From Thiobacillus sp. (GTDB taxonomy: Bacteria > Pseudomonadota > Gammaproteobacteria > Burkholderiales > Thiobacillaceae): DNA of 35,117 bases. A program made the translations under genes and the position numbers. Positions 11,951 through 28,163 of this stretch are shown piece by piece. The stretch covers positions 1 through 35,117 of the forward strand of contig JANJWF010000122.1 in NCBI GenBank assembly GCA_024709685.1. The letters run 5' to 3'. The notes below the pieces were generated by a model. The model searched no databases, was not told the DNA's origin, and saw nothing but the letters and a program-made list of their open reading frames with translations. Position 1 is the stretch's first letter; every line of letters starts with the position of its first letter.

Positions 11951-12739
11951 CTATCCCGGCCGGTTGGCCAAGTGTCGGGTGATGGCTTCGTAGTCGGCGA
12001 TGGCGAGATTTTCGGCTCGCCTGCTTGAGTCGATGCCGAGTGCCGCGAAGTCCTCGGCCTTCAGCAGGCCGCCGAGGGTGTTTCTCAGCGTTTTGCGGCG
12101 TTGCGAAAACGCCGCCGAGACCACACGGGAAAGCAACGCTTCATCGAGCGCGACGATTTCAACGGGTGTTTTGGGGATCAGCCGCACCACTGCGGAATCG
12201 ACCTTGGGCGGCGGATTGAACGCGGTGGGCGGCACGTCGAGCAGCCATTCGAGGTGGAAGCGGCGCTGCAGCATGATCGACAGCCGCCCGTAGTCGGCGG
12301 TCGAGGGCGCGGCGACCATGCGCTCGACCACCTCCTTCTGCAGCATGAAAGTCATGTCGCGGATGTGCGCGCCGAATTCCATCAGCTGGAACAGCAGCGG
12401 CGTGGAAATGTTGTACGGCAGGTTGCCGACGATGCGCAGATCGTCACCCAGGCTGCCGAAATCGAACTTCAGGGCATCGCAGCTGTGCACGCTGAGACGG
12501 TCCGTCGGCCAGGTTCTTTGCAGGCGCGCGACAATGTCGCGGTCAAGTTCGACCACATGCAGGTGCGGCAGGCGCTCGAGCAGGGGCCTGGTCAGTGCCC
12601 CCAGGCCGGGTCCGATTTCGACGACGGTCTCGTCAACCTGGGGATGGATCGTATTGACGATGGCATGGATGACGCCGTCGTCGATGAGGAAGTTCTGGCC
12701 GAAGCGCTTGCGGGGCGTGTGGTTAATCGGTTTGGGCAT
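11951..12739 (-). CDS. rsmA: 16S rRNA (adenine(1518)-N6/adenine(1519)-N6)-dimethyltransferase
   Basis: The KsgA/RsmA methyltransferase that dimethylates two adjacent adenines in helix 45 of 16S rRNA using S-adenosylmethionine, a late step of 30S maturation. The N-terminus reads [16 protein letters not shown], the SAM site [12 protein letters not shown], and the catalytic motif NLPYNIS; the C-terminal domain has [13 protein letters not shown] chose the ATG at 12739 because GGAAG lies 5 nt upstream; the ATG at 12751, four codons earlier, lacks a ribosome site and sits in a hairpin arm. It is the last gene of the lptD-surA-pdxA-rsmA operon and converges on the OYE gene with a gap of 22 bp. Confidence 0.96.
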
Positions 12740-21495: not shown

Positions 21496-22649
21496 ACAGC
21501 GAACACTATCAGGTCGTCATCGTCGGCGCCGGCCTGGTCGGCGTTGCCGCCGCCCTGGCGCTCGGTCGGCAGGGACTGCGGGTCGCGCTGATCGAGCGCC
21601 AGGCGCCAGCTTTGCCGGACGACGCCTGGGACACCCGCATCTATGCCATCAGCCCGGCGAGCCAGCGTTTCCTCGAACGCCTCGGCGCGTGGCAGCGCAT
21701 GGACGCCGGCCGCATCCAGCCGGTGTTCCGCATGGACGTGGCCGGAGACACAAGCGGCATGGTGCGGCTCGATGCCTACCAGGCGGGGGTGTCGCACCTG
21801 GCTGCAATCATTGAGAGTGGACGCCTGCAGCATGCGCTGTGGCAGGCAATCGAAGCCGACGGCAACGTTGCGCTCCACTACCCGGCGACGATCGAATCCC
21901 TCGCCGGAAGGGGTGCGTTCACGCGTCTGACACTGACCGACGGCAAGGTGCTGGAGGCAGACCTGATCGTCGGCGCAGACGGCGCGGCCTCGCGCATCCG
22001 CGAGTGGGCGGGGCTTGCCTCGACGCTGACGCCCTACGGCCAGAGCGGCGTGGTCGCCAATTTCGAATGCGGGCGACCGCACCGCGGCACCGCGTTCCAG
22101 TGGTTCTTCGAGGGCGATATCATGGCGTGGCTGCCGTTGCCGGGGAACCGCATGTCGATGGTCTGGTCAACCGGCACTGAGCATGCGGACGAATGGGTCG
22201 CACAGGAGGCGACGACGCTCGCCGAAAAGATACAGGCGGCTGGCCACGATAGATTGGGCGCGCTGCACTTGCTGACCCCGGCGGCGGCGTTTCCGCTGCG
22301 GCTGATTCGGGTCGAGGCGGCGGTCGCGCCGGGCGTAGCGCTGATAGGCGACGCCGCCCACGGGGTGCACCCGCTCGCGGGGCAGGGCGTCAACCTCGGG
22401 TTCGGCGACGCCGAAGTGCTGGCGGAGGTGTTGGCGCAGCATCGCCGTGCCAGTTGTGGCGACCTGCGCGTGCTGCAGGCGTATGCTCGGCAGCGTGCCG
22501 AGCCGGTGCAGCGCATGCAGGCACTCACGCATGGCCTGCATCATTTGTTCGCCGACGAACGCGCCGCGTGGCTGCGCAATGCCGGAATGAGCGTTATCGA
22601 TCGCCTGCCGCCGCTGAAGGCGGCGCTGGTGCGCGAAGCGATGTCCTGA
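21492..22649 (+). CDS. ubiI: UbiH/UbiF/VisC-family ubiquinone hydroxylase (UbiI-like)
   Basis: A 385-residue paralogue of the previous gene with the FAD motif VVIVGAGLVGVAAALALGRQGLRVALIER, WDTRIYAISPASQRFLERLGAW, the DG motif LIVGADGAASRIREWAG, and GDAAHGVHPLAGQGVNLGFGDAEVLAEVL. By order it is the UbiI (VisC) equivalent that hydroxylates C5 in E. coli, but betaproteobacteria vary in which paralogues (UbiF, UbiI, UbiL, UbiM) they use, so the specific symbol is tentative while the family is firm. Overlap of 4 nt with ubiH indicates coupling. Confidence 0.88.
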   Translation: MNSEHYQVVIVGAGLVGVAAALALGRQGLRVALIERQAPALPDDAWDTRIYAISPASQRFLERLGAWQRMDAGRIQPVFRMDVAGDTSGMVRLDAYQAGVSHLAAIIESGRLQHALWQAIEADGNVALHYPATIESLAGRGAFTRLTLTDGKVLEADLIVGADGAASRIREWAGLASTLTPYGQSGVVANFECGRPHRGTAFQWFFEGDIMAWLPLPGNRMSMVWSTGTEHADEWVAQEATTLAEKIQAAGHDRLGALHLLTPAAAFPLRLIRVEAAVAPGVALIGDAAHGVHPLAGQGVNLGFGDAEVLAEVLAQHRRASCGDLRVLQAYARQRAEPVQRMQALTHGLHHLFADERAAWLRNAGMSVIDRLPPLKAALVREAMS

Positions 22650-22675
22650 TTTTTGATTTTTTCCTGGAGCACCGA

Positions 22676-23386
22676 ATGAAATTCACCACCCTGGTCCTGG
22701 CCGCAACCCTGATGTTCGCCGCGACCGCGCAGGCCAACGAGAACGCCATTCGCAAGGCGCTGACCCAGCAGTTCCCGGGCGCCAACATCGCCTCGGTGCA
22801 GAAGACGCCCTACAGCGGGTTGTTCGAGGTCTACCTCGACGGTCAGCTTATCTACGTCGACGCACAGGCCCAATACGTGTTCGCCGGCGACGTGATCGAC
22901 CTGAAGAGCCGTGCCAACCTGACCCAGGCCCGGCTGAACCGCCTGCAAGCGGTGAAGTGGGAGACGTTCCCGCTGAACAATGCGCTGAAGACCGTGAAAG
23001 GCAAGGGCGAGCGCAAGCTGGTGCTGTTCTCCGATGTCGATTGTCCCTACTGTCGCAAGTTCGAGGCCGAGCTCGCCAAGGTGGACAACATCACCGTCTA
23101 CACCTTCCTTTATCCGATCGAGGGCCTGCATCCGAAAGCGGTACAGACCTCGAAACAGATCTGGTGCGCACCCGACCGCAACAAGGCATGGAACGACTAC
23201 ATCTCGCGCGGCACCGTGCCGGACAACGACGGCAAGTGCGCCAACCCCGTCGAGGCCACCATCGCGCTGGGTGGCAAGCTCAAGGTATCGGGCACGCCGA
23301 CGCTGTTCTTCGCCAACGGCGTGCGCGTGCCCGGCATGGTCCCCGCCGCGCAGCTGGAGCGCCTGCTCGCCACCAACGCCCAATAG
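22676..23386 (+). CDS. dsbC: Thiol:disulfide interchange protein DsbC
   Basis: A periplasmic disulfide isomerase, 236 residues, beginning at the ATG at 22676 with TGGAG upstream. A signal peptide (MKFTTLVLAATLMFAATAQA) precedes the N-terminal dimerisation domain (NAIRKALTQQFPGANIASVQKTPYSGLFEVYLDG). The thioredoxin domain follows: LVLFSDVDCPYCRKFEAEL with the redox pair at residues 123 and 126, a second cysteine pair (IWCAPDRNKAWND ... KCANP), and the cis-proline loop SGTPTLFFANG. The active site is CPYC; E. coli DsbC has CGYC. It lies 26 nt after ubiI. DsbC could help form the LptD disulfide, as known in E. coli. Confidence 0.95.
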   Translation: MKFTTLVLAATLMFAATAQANENAIRKALTQQFPGANIASVQKTPYSGLFEVYLDGQLIYVDAQAQYVFAGDVIDLKSRANLTQARLNRLQAVKWETFPLNNALKTVKGKGERKLVLFSDVDCPYCRKFEAELAKVDNITVYTFLYPIEGLHPKAVQTSKQIWCAPDRNKAWNDYISRGTVPDNDGKCANPVEATIALGGKLKVSGTPTLFFANGVRVPGMVPAAQLERLLATNAQ

Positions 23387-23429
23387 ACCGGTTCCGAGGT
23401 TCGGCCTGCGCGGCTGACAGCGCGGCCTG

Positions 23430-24293
23430 TTACTCGTTGCTGCGTGTTTCTTGTTCCTCGCGTGCCAGGGCGCGCAAGCCGTCGAGGGCACCCTTGAGCG
23501 TGTTGCTGTCGCTGTCGTGCGGGAACACCATGTAAGCGGATAGTTTGAACTCGGGGCTGTCGGGCACGCGCCACAGCAGCCCTGCCTCGAGATAGCGCCG
23601 CACCAGGCGCAGCGGAAAATACCCGCTGCCGCCGTAAGCGAGCAAATGCTGTACTCCCAGCCAGCCGATGTTGGCAACCAGCGTCGGTGTGGGGACTTCG
23701 GGGTGATGGTCGCTGAACTGGGCCTGGAATTCCGCCCCCCAATCGATGTGTATGTAGCCGGGATCCGGCCAGCCGCGTGCAAGGTCGCTGCTCGCCAGCA
23801 CCAGGGTTTCGTCGAACAGCGGTTCCACCACCAGTCCTGGGCGCGACGTCGGCGTGTACATCACCCCGATGTCCACCGTGCCCTCGATCAGGCCTTGCAT
23901 GATGTCGGATTCGAAGCCGATTTCCAGGCGCAGCGACACGTCCGGCGATGCCTCGCGCATCCACGCGACCCAGTGCGGCAGGAACCCCTCCCACACTGCG
24001 ATGCGCCCGCTGAGAGTCAGCACATCACGAAATCCCTCCGGCAGTCCGACATCGTGCCGGGCCTGTTCGACCGTGCGCACCAGGTGCTTGGCGTGACGCA
24101 GGAAGCGCTTGCCGGACGGCGTCAGTTCCGACCCGTTGCGGCCGCGCTGAAACAGGCGTGCGCCGAGCATGGTTTCCAGCGTATGGATGCGGGCGCTTAC
24201 GGTCGACTGCGTGACGTGCAGGCGGCTGGCGGCGGCGACGAAGTTGCCGGTGGCGGCGACCGTCAGGAAAGTGCGGGCAAGTTCGGTATCCAT
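23430..24293 (-). CDS. LysR-family transcriptional regulator divergent from dsrC
   Basis: A 287-residue LTTR. The N-terminal winged helix-turn-helix is typical (MDTELARTFLTVAATGNFVAAASRLHVTQSTVSARIHTLE), followed by a linker helix and a periplasmic-binding-like effector domain (LTLSGRIAVWEGFLPHWVAWM, GFESDIMQGLIEGTVDIGVMYTP). No cysteine pair of the OxyR kind is seen, and the effector is unknown. It is transcribed away from the dsrC-like gene with 109 bp between starts. That gap holds two dyads with LTTR spacing, and very similar sites occur at two other promoters in the window, so it is the best candidate regulator of all three. No Shine-Dalgarno sequence is visible before its ATG. Confidence 0.9.
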   Translation of the reverse strand: MDTELARTFLTVAATGNFVAAASRLHVTQSTVSARIHTLETMLGARLFQRGRNGSELTPSGKRFLRHAKHLVRTVEQARHDVGLPEGFRDVLTLSGRIAVWEGFLPHWVAWMREASPDVSLRLEIGFESDIMQGLIEGTVDIGVMYTPTSRPGLVVEPLFDETLVLASSDLARGWPDPGYIHIDWGAEFQAQFSDHHPEVPTPTLVANIGWLGVQHLLAYGGSGYFPLRLVRRYLEAGLLWRVPDSPEFKLSAYMVFPHDSDSNTLKGALDGLRALAREEQETRSNE

Positions 24294-24305
24294 GGTGCGT
24301 TTGAT

Positions 24306-24374
24306 ATATCGGAAACCCCGATATTAAACGACAAAATTTATCGTTGGATGGATATATAAGGATTCCCTAAACTA
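24306..24374 (+). promoter_or_regulatory. LysR-type operator/promoter of the dsrC-like gene
   Basis: A perfect 7-bp dyad ATATCGG, AAACC, CCGATAT (24306-24324) contains ATCG-N7-CGAT, i.e. T-N11-A. Centred 31.5 bp downstream is TATC-N8-GATA (24339-24354), which overlaps a TTGGAT -35 box (24344-24349). An 18-bp spacer leads to the -10 TAAACT (24368-24373). If transcription starts near 24380, the dyads centre at about -65 and -33, the textbook LTTR recognition and activation sites. The upstream dyad lies 13 bp from the lysR start and could also serve autoregulation. Confidence 0.72.
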
Positions 24375-24402
24375 GGCCCGTCACTAACAAGAGGAGCCTG
24401 CA

Positions 24403-24741
24403 ATGAAACAACCATCCGACCTCGCGACCTTGATGCCCGAACGCGATGCCGAGGGGTATCTGATCGAACCCGGTGACTGGAACGAAGAGGTTGCCAAAGT
24501 CCTCGCCCAAGGGGAGAACGTCCAGCTCGAGGATGACCACTGGGACGTTATTCGCTTCATGCGCGACTATTACGACGAGCACCAGATTGCGGTCGATGCC
24601 CGTTTCGTCATCAAGCATCTGGCCAAGCGCATGGGCAAGGATGCGCACAAGAAGCTGTTCGAACTGTTCCCCTACGGCTACGTCCAGCAGGCCTGCAAGA
24701 TCGCCGGCATGCGGCGTCCGCGTGCCTGGAGCACGGGTTGA
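24403..24741 (+). CDS. TusE/DsrC-family sulfur relay protein lacking the penultimate cysteine
   Basis: A small cytosolic sulfur-carrier-fold protein of 112 residues with GAGGAG 6 nt before the ATG. Family wording runs throughout: RDAEGYLIEPGDWNEEVAKVLA, LEDDHWDVIRFMRDYYDEHQIA, RFVIKHLAKRMGKD, and LFELFPYGYVQQACKIAGMRRPRAW. DsrC carries two arm cysteines 11 residues apart, the outer one next to last; TusE keeps only the outer one. Here the inner Cys98 is present, but the position 11 residues later is Trp109 and the chain ends STG. It therefore cannot form the DsrC intramolecular disulfide or trisulfide. It may bind sulfur at Cys98 or act as a regulator. It is controlled from its own LTTR-type promoter. 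Confidence 0.88.
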   Translation: MKQPSDLATLMPERDAEGYLIEPGDWNEEVAKVLAQGENVQLEDDHWDVIRFMRDYYDEHQIAVDARFVIKHLAKRMGKDAHKKLFELFPYGYVQQACKIAGMRRPRAWSTG

Positions 24742-24782
24742 TGCGCAGGTCGCCCTGCCCGGCAATCGCTAGAGGGTGATCT

Positions 24783-24800
24783 CGCCTGCTCGCGCAGGCG
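24783..24800 (+). terminator. Possible terminator hairpin after the dsrC-like gene
   Basis: CGCCTGC, loop TCGC, GCAGGCG forms a perfect 7-bp GC stem 41 nt after the stop. No T-run follows, so intrinsic termination is doubtful. Confidence 0.3.
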
Positions 24801-24874
24801 TAGATGCCGGTGGCCACACGATGAGGTGGTGCCGGCGAACCCGGTCTCTATCTTTTTGAGTCGACGCAATCCGG

Positions 24875-24948
24875 GGCTGACATCGATTTTCTCGATGTCA
24901 GCCAACAAAATATATCGTTGGATCGCTATATAAGGAAACTCTAAACTA
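24875..24948 (+). promoter_or_regulatory. Second copy of the LysR-type operator/promoter
   Basis: A perfect 12-bp inverted repeat with a TTTTC centre (24875-24903) contains the same ATCG-N7-CGAT core. Centred 31.5 bp downstream is TATC followed by GCTA (24913-24928), overlapping TTGGAT (24918-24923); then an 18-bp spacer and TAAACT (24942-24947). The 52 bp from 24906 match 24332-24383 at 45 positions by my alignment. It is a diverged duplicate of the dsrC promoter and now faces the HPP-family gene across a leader of about 300 nt. Confidence 0.68.
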
Positions 24949-24971
24949 GGCACGTCAAACAATGGAGTGCC

Positions 24972-25024
24972 ATCGACAGCCACGCCGACCTCGCACCTGA
25001 TGCCCGGAAGCCACAACGAGGGTT
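24972..25024 (+). pseudogene. Remnant of a second dsrC 5' end
   Basis: Just after the duplicated promoter the sequence still resembles the start of the dsrC-like gene. GACCTCGC occurs 15 nt after the start position in both, and TGATGCCCG follows. The start codon ATG has become ATC (24972-24974), and 2 nt are missing between the two shared blocks, which shifts the frame. Similarity fades after about 25024. The leader spacing is 5 nt shorter than in the intact gene. Interpretation: decayed tandem duplicate, probably non-coding now. Confidence 0.6.
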
Positions 25025-25271
25025 GTTTCTTTAGTACCACGCCCTCGCCGAGCACTCGCTGCCGAGAATGCCGACGCTGACTGATGCCCTGTGGTCGTCT
25101 GATTCTACGCGTGCCCGGCACATGGAAGTGTGCCGTGAGCGAACCGCGTGATCGGGCCGGCCAAGAGGATGGCGAATCGCCAAGCAATCCCTGTACGAAC
25201 CGTTTCCAGCATAGCTCTGGCTGTGCCGGTGTGCCCGCTTGTCTCATGAAAGTCAAACACAAGGTGCTGGT
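25025..25271 (+). other. Leader region before the HPP gene, no gene seen
   Basis: About 250 bp with no convincing coding frame on either strand. It contains a hairpin at 25116-25135 (CGGCACA, loop TGGAAG, TGTGCCG). If the duplicated promoter at 24875-24948 is active, this stretch is the 5' untranslated region of the HPP-family gene. Confidence 0.5.
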
Positions 25272-26009
25272 GTGAAGAGAATTGCATACGTGGTTTCGGA
25301 ACGCGAACACTGGGTCTCGGCCGGTGGCGGGCTCGCTGGCATGCTGGCGGTGTTGTGGGTGAGCCATTTCCTGCTGGGCGGCGGGCAGAACCACGCACTC
25401 ATCATTGCCTCGATGGGTGCGTCCGCCGTGCTGTTGTTCGCCGCGCCGCACGGTGCCCTGTCACAGCCGTGGCCGTTATTGGGCGGTCATGTCATATCGG
25501 CCCTGATCGGCGCCAGTTGTGCGCAATGGCTTGCCGATACCCCGATAGTGGCCGCATCGCTGGCGGTGGCGCTGTCGATCGGCGCCATGTACAGCCTGCG
25601 CTGCCTGCACCCCCCGGGTGGCGCCACCGCCCTGCATGCCGTGATCGGCGGCGACGCGGTGCATGCAATGGGTTACGGCTACGCGTTCAATCCGGTGCTG
25701 CTGAACGTTCTCGTGCTGCTGGCCGTGGCGGTGGCGTTCAACTATCCGTTCGCCTGGCGGCGGTATCCGCAGGTGTGGTGGCGCAAGGCATTGGTATGCG
25801 AAACGCCGGCGGCAGCTACCTCCGGCGCAGGCGAGAAATGCATGATTCCCCACAGCGACCTGGTTTACGCCTTGAGCCAGATCGACACATTCGTCGACGT
25901 CAGCGAAGAGGACCTGCAGAAAATCTACGCGCTGGCGCTGGGGCATCACAACCAGGTTGCCGAAGCTGCGGTGGGCTCGCCTGAGCCGGTCCCCGAGCCC
26001 GCAACCTGA
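25272..26009 (+). CDS. HPP-family integral membrane protein
   Basis: A 245-residue protein with about five hydrophobic helices and the family-naming motif LHPPGGATAL (about residue 114). The membrane part runs from WVSAGGGLAGMLAVLWVSHFL to LLNVLVLLAVAVAFNYPFAW; GASAVLLFAAPHGALSQPW is another family hallmark. The polar C-terminal tail of about 65 residues contains DLVYALSQIDTFVDVSEEDLQKIY, which looks like a small cytosolic domain. Some cyanobacterial and plastid HPP proteins transport nitrite; function in this lineage is unknown. I chose the GTG at 25272 because AAGG precedes it; a TTG at 25239 would add 11 residues. It lies downstream of the second LysR-type promoter. Confidence 0.85.
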   Translation: MKRIAYVVSEREHWVSAGGGLAGMLAVLWVSHFLLGGGQNHALIIASMGASAVLLFAAPHGALSQPWPLLGGHVISALIGASCAQWLADTPIVAASLAVALSIGAMYSLRCLHPPGGATALHAVIGGDAVHAMGYGYAFNPVLLNVLVLLAVAVAFNYPFAWRRYPQVWWRKALVCETPAAATSGAGEKCMIPHSDLVYALSQIDTFVDVSEEDLQKIYALALGHHNQVAEAAVGSPEPVPEPAT

Positions 26010-27257: not shown

Positions 27258-28163
27258 ATGACCCTGCAAGAACTGAGGTACCTGGTGGCGCTGGCCGACC
27301 ACGGCCATTTCGGGCGTGCGGCCGAAGCCTGCTTCATCACCCAGTCGACGCTGTCGACCCAGATCAAGAAGCTGGAGGACTTTCTCGGGGTCACGCTGTT
27401 CGACCGCAGCCTGAAGCGCGTCACGCCGACGCCGATAGGCAAGGAGATCCTGCAGGCGGCGCGCAACATCGTCGAGGAAGCCGAGCGTATCCGCGAACTG
27501 GCGAAGCATGCGCAGAATCCGATGACGCGTACCCTCCATCTCGGCGTCATCCCCACCCTTGGGCCGTATTACTTGCCGCACGCGCTGACCTTGGCGCACA
27601 AGAAACACCCTGGCCTGCGCCTGCTGCTGCGCGAAGAAATGACGCCGCAGATCCTCGAGCATCTGGCCGATGGCAAGCTCGACGCCGGCCTGCTGGCGCT
27701 GCCGGTCGGCGACGAGGCCCTGCGCGTCGAGCCACTCTTCTACGAACCTTTCTATGCCGCACTGCCCGCGGGGCATGCGCTCGCAAAGCGCGCCGTGCTG
27801 AAGGTTGCCGACATCATGAGCGAGAAACTGCTGCTGCTCGACGAGGGCCACTGCCTGCGCGACCAGGCGCTCGATGTCTGCGGTGCGGGCACCGCAGGGC
27901 GCGAGGAAGTGCGGGCGACCAGCCTGGAGACCTTGCGCCAGATGGTGGGCATGGGGCTCGGGCTGACGCTACTGCCGGCGCTTGCGGTCGATGCGGCACC
28001 GCGCGTCGGCAAGAAGGCGGTCGAGATCCGGCCGTTCAAGTCGCCGCCGCCGGGGCGCACCATCGGTCTGGTGTGGCGCCGCCGCGCGCCGTTTCCCGAA
28101 ACTTTCGAGCGGCTGGCTGCCACGCTCAAGGCCGGTCTGCCGGCCGGAGTGGAGCCCGTCTGA
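27258..28163 (+). CDS. oxyR: Hydrogen peroxide-responsive regulator OxyR
   Basis: A LysR-type activator of peroxide defence, 301 residues. The HTH region reads MTLQELRYLVALADHGHFGRAAEACFITQSTLSTQIKKLE. The effector domain contains LLDEGHCLRDQALDVC with Cys199 and Cys208 at exactly the E. coli positions of the peroxide-sensing disulfide, so a redox switch is expected. VRATSLETLRQMVGMGLGLTLLP also matches OxyR. A perfect palindrome covers the region just before the ATG and no ordinary Shine-Dalgarno sequence is visible. The stop codon shares a base with the ATG of the next gene. No catalase or peroxiredoxin gene is adjacent in this window. Confidence 0.95.
   Translation: MTLQELRYLVALADHGHFGRAAEACFITQSTLSTQIKKLEDFLGVTLFDRSLKRVTPTPIGKEILQAARNIVEEAERIRELAKHAQNPMTRTLHLGVIPTLGPYYLPHALTLAHKKHPGLRLLLREEMTPQILEHLADGKLDAGLLALPVGDEALRVEPLFYEPFYAALPAGHALAKRAVLKVADIMSEKLLLLDEGHCLRDQALDVCGAGTAGREEVRATSLETLRQMVGMGLGLTLLPALAVDAAPRVGKKAVEIRPFKSPPPGRTIGLVWRRRAPFPETFERLAATLKAGLPAGVEPV

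Follow-up and report, generated by a model that had tools for sequence, protein, structure and literature searches.

The 109-bp gap that separates a gene for a LysR-type regulator from a divergently transcribed dsrC-like gene in Thiobacillus sp. very probably contains, judging from its sequence, a divergent LysR-type operator-promoter that drives the dsrC-like gene and the hpp gene behind it, and the same regulator probably serves accessory sulfur genes elsewhere. The basis of this reading is observed directly and consists of the sequence of two sites, their conservation, their fixed spacing, the gene neighbourhood and the occurrence of further sites of the same kind before other genes. The gap lies in a contig of 35,117 nucleotides (the window, i.e., the whole stretch of DNA that was analysed) from a genome that is 79% complete, and its features, together with those of the adjoining genes, are as follows.

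23430-24293, minus strand: gene for the LysR-type regulator (lysR; 287 aa, domains HTH_1 and LysR_substrate)
24306-24324: site 1, perfect dyad with 7-bp arms (ATATCGG-AAACC-CCGATAT), centre 24315, about -65
24308-24322: conserved core of site 1, ATCG-N7-CGAT, of the T-N11-A type, exact in 46 of 49 distinct gaps
24321-24326, minus strand: possible -10 of lysR, TAATAT, overlapping the right arm of site 1; a good -35 was not seen
24332-24339: A/T tract CAAAATTT between sites 1 and 2, from per-position information content
24339-24354: site 2, here TATC-GTTGGATG-GATA, centre 24346.5, about -33, covering the -35
24340-24353: conserved core of site 2, ATC-N8-(G/A)AT, here ATCGTTGGATGGAT, from the aligned orthologous gaps
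24344-24349, plus strand: weak -35, TTGGAT, exact in 33 of 49 distinct gaps
24368-24373, plus strand: -10, TAAACT, 18-bp spacer to the -35, exact in 42 of 49; start inferred near 24380
24392-24396, plus strand: Shine-Dalgarno sequence AGGAG of the dsrC-like gene
24403-24741, plus strand: dsrC-like gene, type 1 (112 aa; Pfam DsrC, 113.2 bits)
24876-24902: second operator, site 1 ATCG-N7-CGAT (24882-24896) within a perfect dyad with 11-bp arms
24914-24947, plus strand: second operator, site 2 ATCGTTGGAT (24914-24923) and -10 TAAACT (24942-24947)
24963-25235, plus strand: decayed second dsrC-like gene, a type-2 relic (blastn)
25272-26009, plus strand: gene for an HPP-family membrane protein (GTG start inferred from relatives), the usual third gene of the module

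An initial annotation, made from the letters of this stretch, had placed a perfect dyad about 65 bp before the inferred transcription start and a TATC-N8-GATA dyad about 33 bp before it, over the -35 box. On direct reading the coordinates and distance of the first hold, the second is found where it was expected, over TTGGAT, and the two centres are indeed 31.5 bp apart. Because the start is inferred near 24380, the centres are given as -65 and -33.5. Counted from ATCG start to ATCG start, the ATCGTTGGAT of site 2 sits 32 bp past site 1. A generic sigma-70 scan of positions 22000-26000 returned 0 promoters (mean of shuffles, 0.8). The window has a third ATCG-N7-CGAT motif, at 12143, but no third copy of the complete two-site pattern was found in it. 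The Pfam TM_HPP match of the membrane protein gene lies on a longer frame (25239-26006), and in most named relatives an hpp gene stands behind the operator and dsrC. A second LysR-type open reading frame occurs in the window at 27258-28163 on the plus strand, with an HTH that is 38% identical.

Dinucleotide shuffling of the 109-bp gap (3000 rounds) produced a perfect dyad with 7-bp arms and a spacer of 0-12 in 7.2% of cases, TATC-N8-GATA in 0.3% and both dyads together in 0.1%. Dyad 1 alone is thus not striking, and the case for an operator is decided by comparative conservation and not by dyad statistics. A search at E <= 1e-40 recovered an orthologue of the regulator from 56 of 100 relatives, namely from 53 of the 56 members of the genus, one further member of the family and two of the order, and 59 lysR loci were examined. 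At 51 of these a divergent dsrC is present within roughly 100-160 bp, 50 of them in the genus and one (L064) outside it; 49 of the 51 lysR-dsrC operators are distinct. Among these 49 gaps, ATCG-N7-CGAT is exact in 46, the ATCG of site 2 in 48 and its longer form ATCGTT in 46. The initial annotation had suggested a search for the two dyads before orthologous lysR-dsrC pairs, and had named gaps lacking both of them as the finding that would speak against the idea; both sites are intact in 45 of the 49 gaps, at a fixed spacing of exactly 32 bp. The four that deviate (L029, L040, L049, L064) are one or two letters off, in one site. The proposed operator model survives in part: its first half, ATCG-N7-CGAT, stands as written, but the literal TATC-N8-GATA of site 2 is found in only 17 of 49 gaps, and this half is better given as ATCG plus ATC-N8-(G/A)AT, whose A-T and T-A pairs hold in 47 of 49 each. 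Across the alignment the mean frequency of the top letter is 0.99 at 26 core positions vs. 0.62 at 19 spacer positions, sets that were picked post hoc. The exact pattern is also kept in two named records (L143, L160) whose LysR is just 52-54% identical. The conservation in orthologous gaps supports the LysR operator geometry that had been proposed for this predicted site.

The eight lysR loci without a divergent dsrC are of several kinds. One lies at a contig edge (L052). In three genomes (L058-L060) the LysR is 73% identical and dsrC was not found (tblastn, 1e-8); the left half-site of site 1 is decayed there as well, which makes these loci a small natural control. At L063 and L065 an HPP-like frame, assigned by its HPPGG motif and not by a Pfam run, replaces dsrC. 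The remaining two, L066 (G047) and L067 (G020), carry LysR paralogues of 62-63% without a dsrC, and their gap only remotely resembles the operator.

The regulator itself belongs to the LysR type by both of its domains, HTH_1 (70.2 bits, cut-off 26.6) and LysR_substrate (64.1 bits, cut-off 28), and its residues 28-36 hardly vary across 56 aligned LysR sequences. Two features by which LysR-type operators are recognised are found with it, namely a T-N11-A inverted repeat before the divergent target, i.e., the core of site 1, and a second site near the -35 (of the inferred start) three helical turns further on. Its best-scoring NCBIfam model is HdfR, which it matches over nearly its whole length; however, its 114.5 bits fall short of the cut-off of 240, and it was not accepted as HdfR. 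Sites of OxyR (ATAG-N7-CTAT) share the 15-bp length of the inverted repeat (PMC5002191), but the LysR relatives studied here differ from OxyR in having no conserved cysteine: among 58 rows there is no conserved cysteine column, and three columns hold one cysteine each. For this reason OxyR-type thiol sensing is unlikely.

The neighbour had been described as dsrC-like, and the family assignment stands: the protein matches Pfam PF04358 with 113.2 bits (cut-off 24.9) and has relatives in the PDB. It is not a canonical DsrC, however, since the penultimate cysteine is absent. Like the DsrC of A. vinosum it belongs to the Pfam DsrC family and keeps the upstream cysteine equivalent to Cys100, which is its one cysteine (its C-terminus reads ..QQACKIAGMRRPRAWSTG); in A. 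vinosum the penultimate cysteine is the persulfide site and is called strictly conserved in PMC3397948, whereas it occurs in 0 of the 52 DsrC-like proteins compared here. Its absence makes it unlikely, as read from the sequence, that the neighbour performs canonical DsrC chemistry. TusE was rejected as an identity (79.2 bits, NCBIfam equivalog cut-off 191). The window genome also encodes a two-cysteine paralogue (L003), and extra DsrC-family genes have been known before, e.g., the four of A. vinosum (PMC3368242).

A second copy of the operator, beyond what the initial annotation had described, stands behind the dsrC-like gene. Its sequence from 24882 to 24947 is identical to the first at 49 of 66 bases, and the two copies have the same core, though two arm pairs differ, each of them changed on both sides. 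The dyad at 24876-24902 reads GCTGACATCGA-N5-TCGATGTCAGC, with arms longer than in the first operator. The DNA that follows was compared initially with type-1 dsrC and was assigned to type 2 after DNA comparison with all dsrC loci: blastn of 24870-25235 against the operator and type-2 dsrC of L037 gave 64.6% over 413 columns (E 2.8e-30), and type-2 loci are the best 11 of the 15 matches listed for the relic, the first seven extending over 381-413 columns. At the protein level the relic yielded a single weak match, over 12 residues (E 0.004). An intact version of the arrangement occurs in G011, in the order lysR, operator and type-1 dsrC, operator and type-2 dsrC, hpp; at the remaining loci one dsrC each was detected, of type 1 or type 2.

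The two-site pattern is not confined to this gap. An exact scan of 84,980 species returned 51 stretches, of which 39 adjoin a relative of the window lysR (37 with a divergent dsrC, one at a contig edge and one, at 59%, with another gene); the rest lie before cfa (nine), dsrA (two) and an unnamed betaproteobacterial gene (one). With three mismatches allowed, 54 of the 56 genomes of the genus contain a match, against one match in all of them for a reversed control pattern and none for a longer reversed control. At this setting the window genome contains just the two sites of the lysR-dsrC locus, and 12 further matches in the genus fall elsewhere. One site with two mismatches (L268) has no nameable gene behind it. 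Weaker or distant matches stand before an open reading frame that is rubrerythrin-like when judged by eye (L273, 1002, minus strand, G024) and before a gene that, likewise by eye, resembles a peroxiredoxin (L133, 703-748, Betaproteobacteria SG8_40). The Thiobacillus locus also turns up in L139 and L152, whose record titles (Gammaproteobacteria and Rhizobium) look wrong.

For the genes other than dsrC, a weight matrix built from the 51 lysR-dsrC operators only was applied to the upstream DNA, with DsrA and cfa (CFA synthase) identified by their NCBIfam equivalogs. The 85 dsrA matches gave 70 upstream stretches after 15 truncated or edge copies had been left out, and 63 of these could be scored (six had no clear start and one was too short). 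Five score between 3.9 and 22.2, L180 scores -42.3 and no other stretch exceeds -56.7; the top score among 315 shuffles, -46.8, is close to that of L180. On inspection L180 has ATCG-N7-CGAT followed by ATCGTTTGTTAAAT, with a one-base insertion that puts 33 instead of 32 bp between the two ATCGs. Among 30 DsrA proteins, those encoded by the six dsrA genes with the operator (L178-L182 and L184, from six Thiobacillus genomes) group together on a separate branch (100/100), and dsrB is absent within about 1.5 kb downstream of these genes and present for all 24 others in the set. The operator is therefore found before 6/6 of these orphan dsrA genes, once with the insertion, and is absent before the 57 other scored copies; the main dsr promoters have a different upstream sequence. 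A cfa gene matches in 19 of 56 genomes, and the operator precedes all 18 with a 5' end (scores 9.3 to 60.6) and is absent from the fragment without a 5' end in G031. In G048 the cfa is split into two overlapping matches (L225/L227, residues 1-188 and 185-390), perhaps through a frameshift or an assembly fault.

A 151-aa protein has matches in 49 of 56 genomes. Six genomes hold a second copy that is closer to the query (95-100% identity; the query is among these six), and the operator is present before 6/6 (scores 9.8 to 44.2), whereas it is absent before the 24 first copies that were scored, the best of which (L285, -45.9) shows no recognisable site pair. Since the protein matched no Pfam or NCBIfam family and its PDB match, to a sulfur oxygenase/reductase, is weak (E 0.17), no function is claimed for it. 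Several first copies (L281, L282, L284, L290, L291 and others) have another motif, TAGTTGACTAAT, at a similar distance upstream, possibly the site of a different regulator. In place of ATCGTTGGAT, most sites at cfa, dsrA and the 151-aa gene have ATCGTTTGTT or ATCGTTTGAT. A TA...T hexamer occupies the position that corresponds to the -10 of the dsrC operators in 27 of 30 distal sites (19 cfa, five dsrA, six 151-aa), and the distal sites of L099, L101 and L109 have TATCTT one base upstream of this position.

The best reading of these sequences is that of an ordinary LysR-type activator site with a small regulon of accessory sulfur genes. In the standard LysR activation model a tetramer covers two sites and a weak -35. 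Here, one dimer would grip site 1 tightly at -65 while the second dimer of the same tetramer would contact the weaker site 2 (ATCG...AT) at -33, three turns on, and the A/T tract between them would be bent by the tetramer. Without its effector the protein would occupy the poor -35 and cover its own promoter; upon effector binding it would shift, allowing RNA polymerase to use TTGGAT-N18-TAAACT and transcribe dsrC-hpp. The sequence CGATATTA is found in 43 of 51 lysR-dsrC gaps, compared with 3 of the 30 distal sites (those of cfa, dsrA and the 151-aa gene). A TAATAT that reads in the direction of lysR overlaps site 1, an overlap retained chiefly in front of a divergent lysR, and this suggests autorepression. 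Elsewhere in the genus the same protein probably switches the orphan dsrA, the CFA synthase gene and the second 151-aa copy. Binding, the tetramer, bending, activation, autorepression and a regulon under a single regulator are what we infer from this arrangement; the nearly letter-for-letter conservation and the recurrence of the same region before spare copies of sulfur genes indicate that it is probably the switch of one regulator.

That the protein bound at -33 acts as a pure repressor, which simply blocks polymerase until the effector releases it and never activates, is improbable. Site 2 does cover the -35 and an A/T-rich promoter could fire unaided; however, the -35 is poor (TTGGAT, TTTGTT, etc.) in all classes of sites, no match to the sigma-70 consensus was found, and the distal site is strictly kept at -65, as at the OccR promoter. 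A somewhat stronger contender, though still an unlikely one, leaves the operator of the locus to this LysR and assigns the distal sites (cfa, orphan dsrA, 151-aa gene) to another LysR of similar DNA preference. It draws on the different spelling of the distal class, on a second LysR with 41-43% HTH identity that in G016 and G044 lies some 1.6 kb away from cfa, on a second LysR with 72% HTH identity in G047, and on G001 (87% complete) and G008 (70% complete), in which a cfa site is present and the LysR orthologue was not found at 1e-40. Against it, in five genomes that are at least 99% complete (G011, G016, G024, G048, G051) one LysR was found with 90-94% HTH identity and the next reaches at most 44%, so that in G011, G024, G048 and G051 the sole close HTH found is that of this LysR. 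Moreover, ATCGTTTGTT also occurs in the own gap of the lysR of other genera (L063, L065), and one protein thus plausibly reads both spellings.

The dyads might also not be a protein site at all. An RNA hairpin (attenuator or terminator) would account for the perfect arms, which reach 11 bp in the second copy, but the inferred dsrC start is downstream of site 1, there is no T-run downstream of the dyad, and the three inner pairs are complementary in just 10-16 of 49 gaps while ATCG/CGAT and the flanking T/A stay complementary; because the inner pairs are not conserved, the hairpin is rejected as very improbable. The idea that the dyads arose by chance in an A/T-rich sequence can appeal to the frequency of 7-bp dyads in the shuffles and is the least credible of all, given a core that is conserved in nearly every distinct gap, duplicated in the window and recurring before unrelated genes, and reversed controls that yield next to no matches.

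LysR operators are well known as a kind. The activator reading has its closest parallel at occR-occQ of Agrobacterium, an experimentally studied system in which OccR has inverted-repeat sites at -64 (the strongest) and -33 of the occQ start (PMC5002191); two sites stand at about -65 and -33 of the inferred start here as well, with the different sequence ATCG-N7-CGAT. SoxR and sHdrR of Hyphomicrobium denitrificans are likewise regulators of sulfur-oxidation genes, but they are repressors of the ArsR type with two essential cysteines (PMC12423496), whereas the present regulator is of the LysR type, has no conserved cysteines and stands with paralogous genes. An earlier study of dsr regulation in A. 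vinosum is cited among PMC3753534, PMC12423496, PMC3368242 and PMC3397948. Neither a regulator of dsr-type genes in Thiobacillus nor the content of this regulon was found described in the part of the literature that was searched.

As for the signal, the best PDB match of the regulator by sequence is NtcB (E 3.6e-16). HPP membrane proteins are linked with nitrite. This match and the HPP gene in the module make nitrite a lead for the effector, and only a lead. There is about an even chance that one LysR runs a "second set" of proteins from near-identical promoters, i.e., DsrC-like proteins lacking the persulfide cysteine, the DsrA that lacks a DsrB, the 151-aa duplicate, the HPP protein and CFA synthase, and such a set may represent an alternative module for handling sulfur or nitrogen oxides, or for signaling, that is switched by a small-molecule effector. 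In all, a readable operator ties a regulator to unexplained Dsr paralogues, namely orphan DsrA and the DsrC-like proteins that lack the persulfide cysteine, and thereby offers direct access to the question of which of these paralogues respond, and to what signal.
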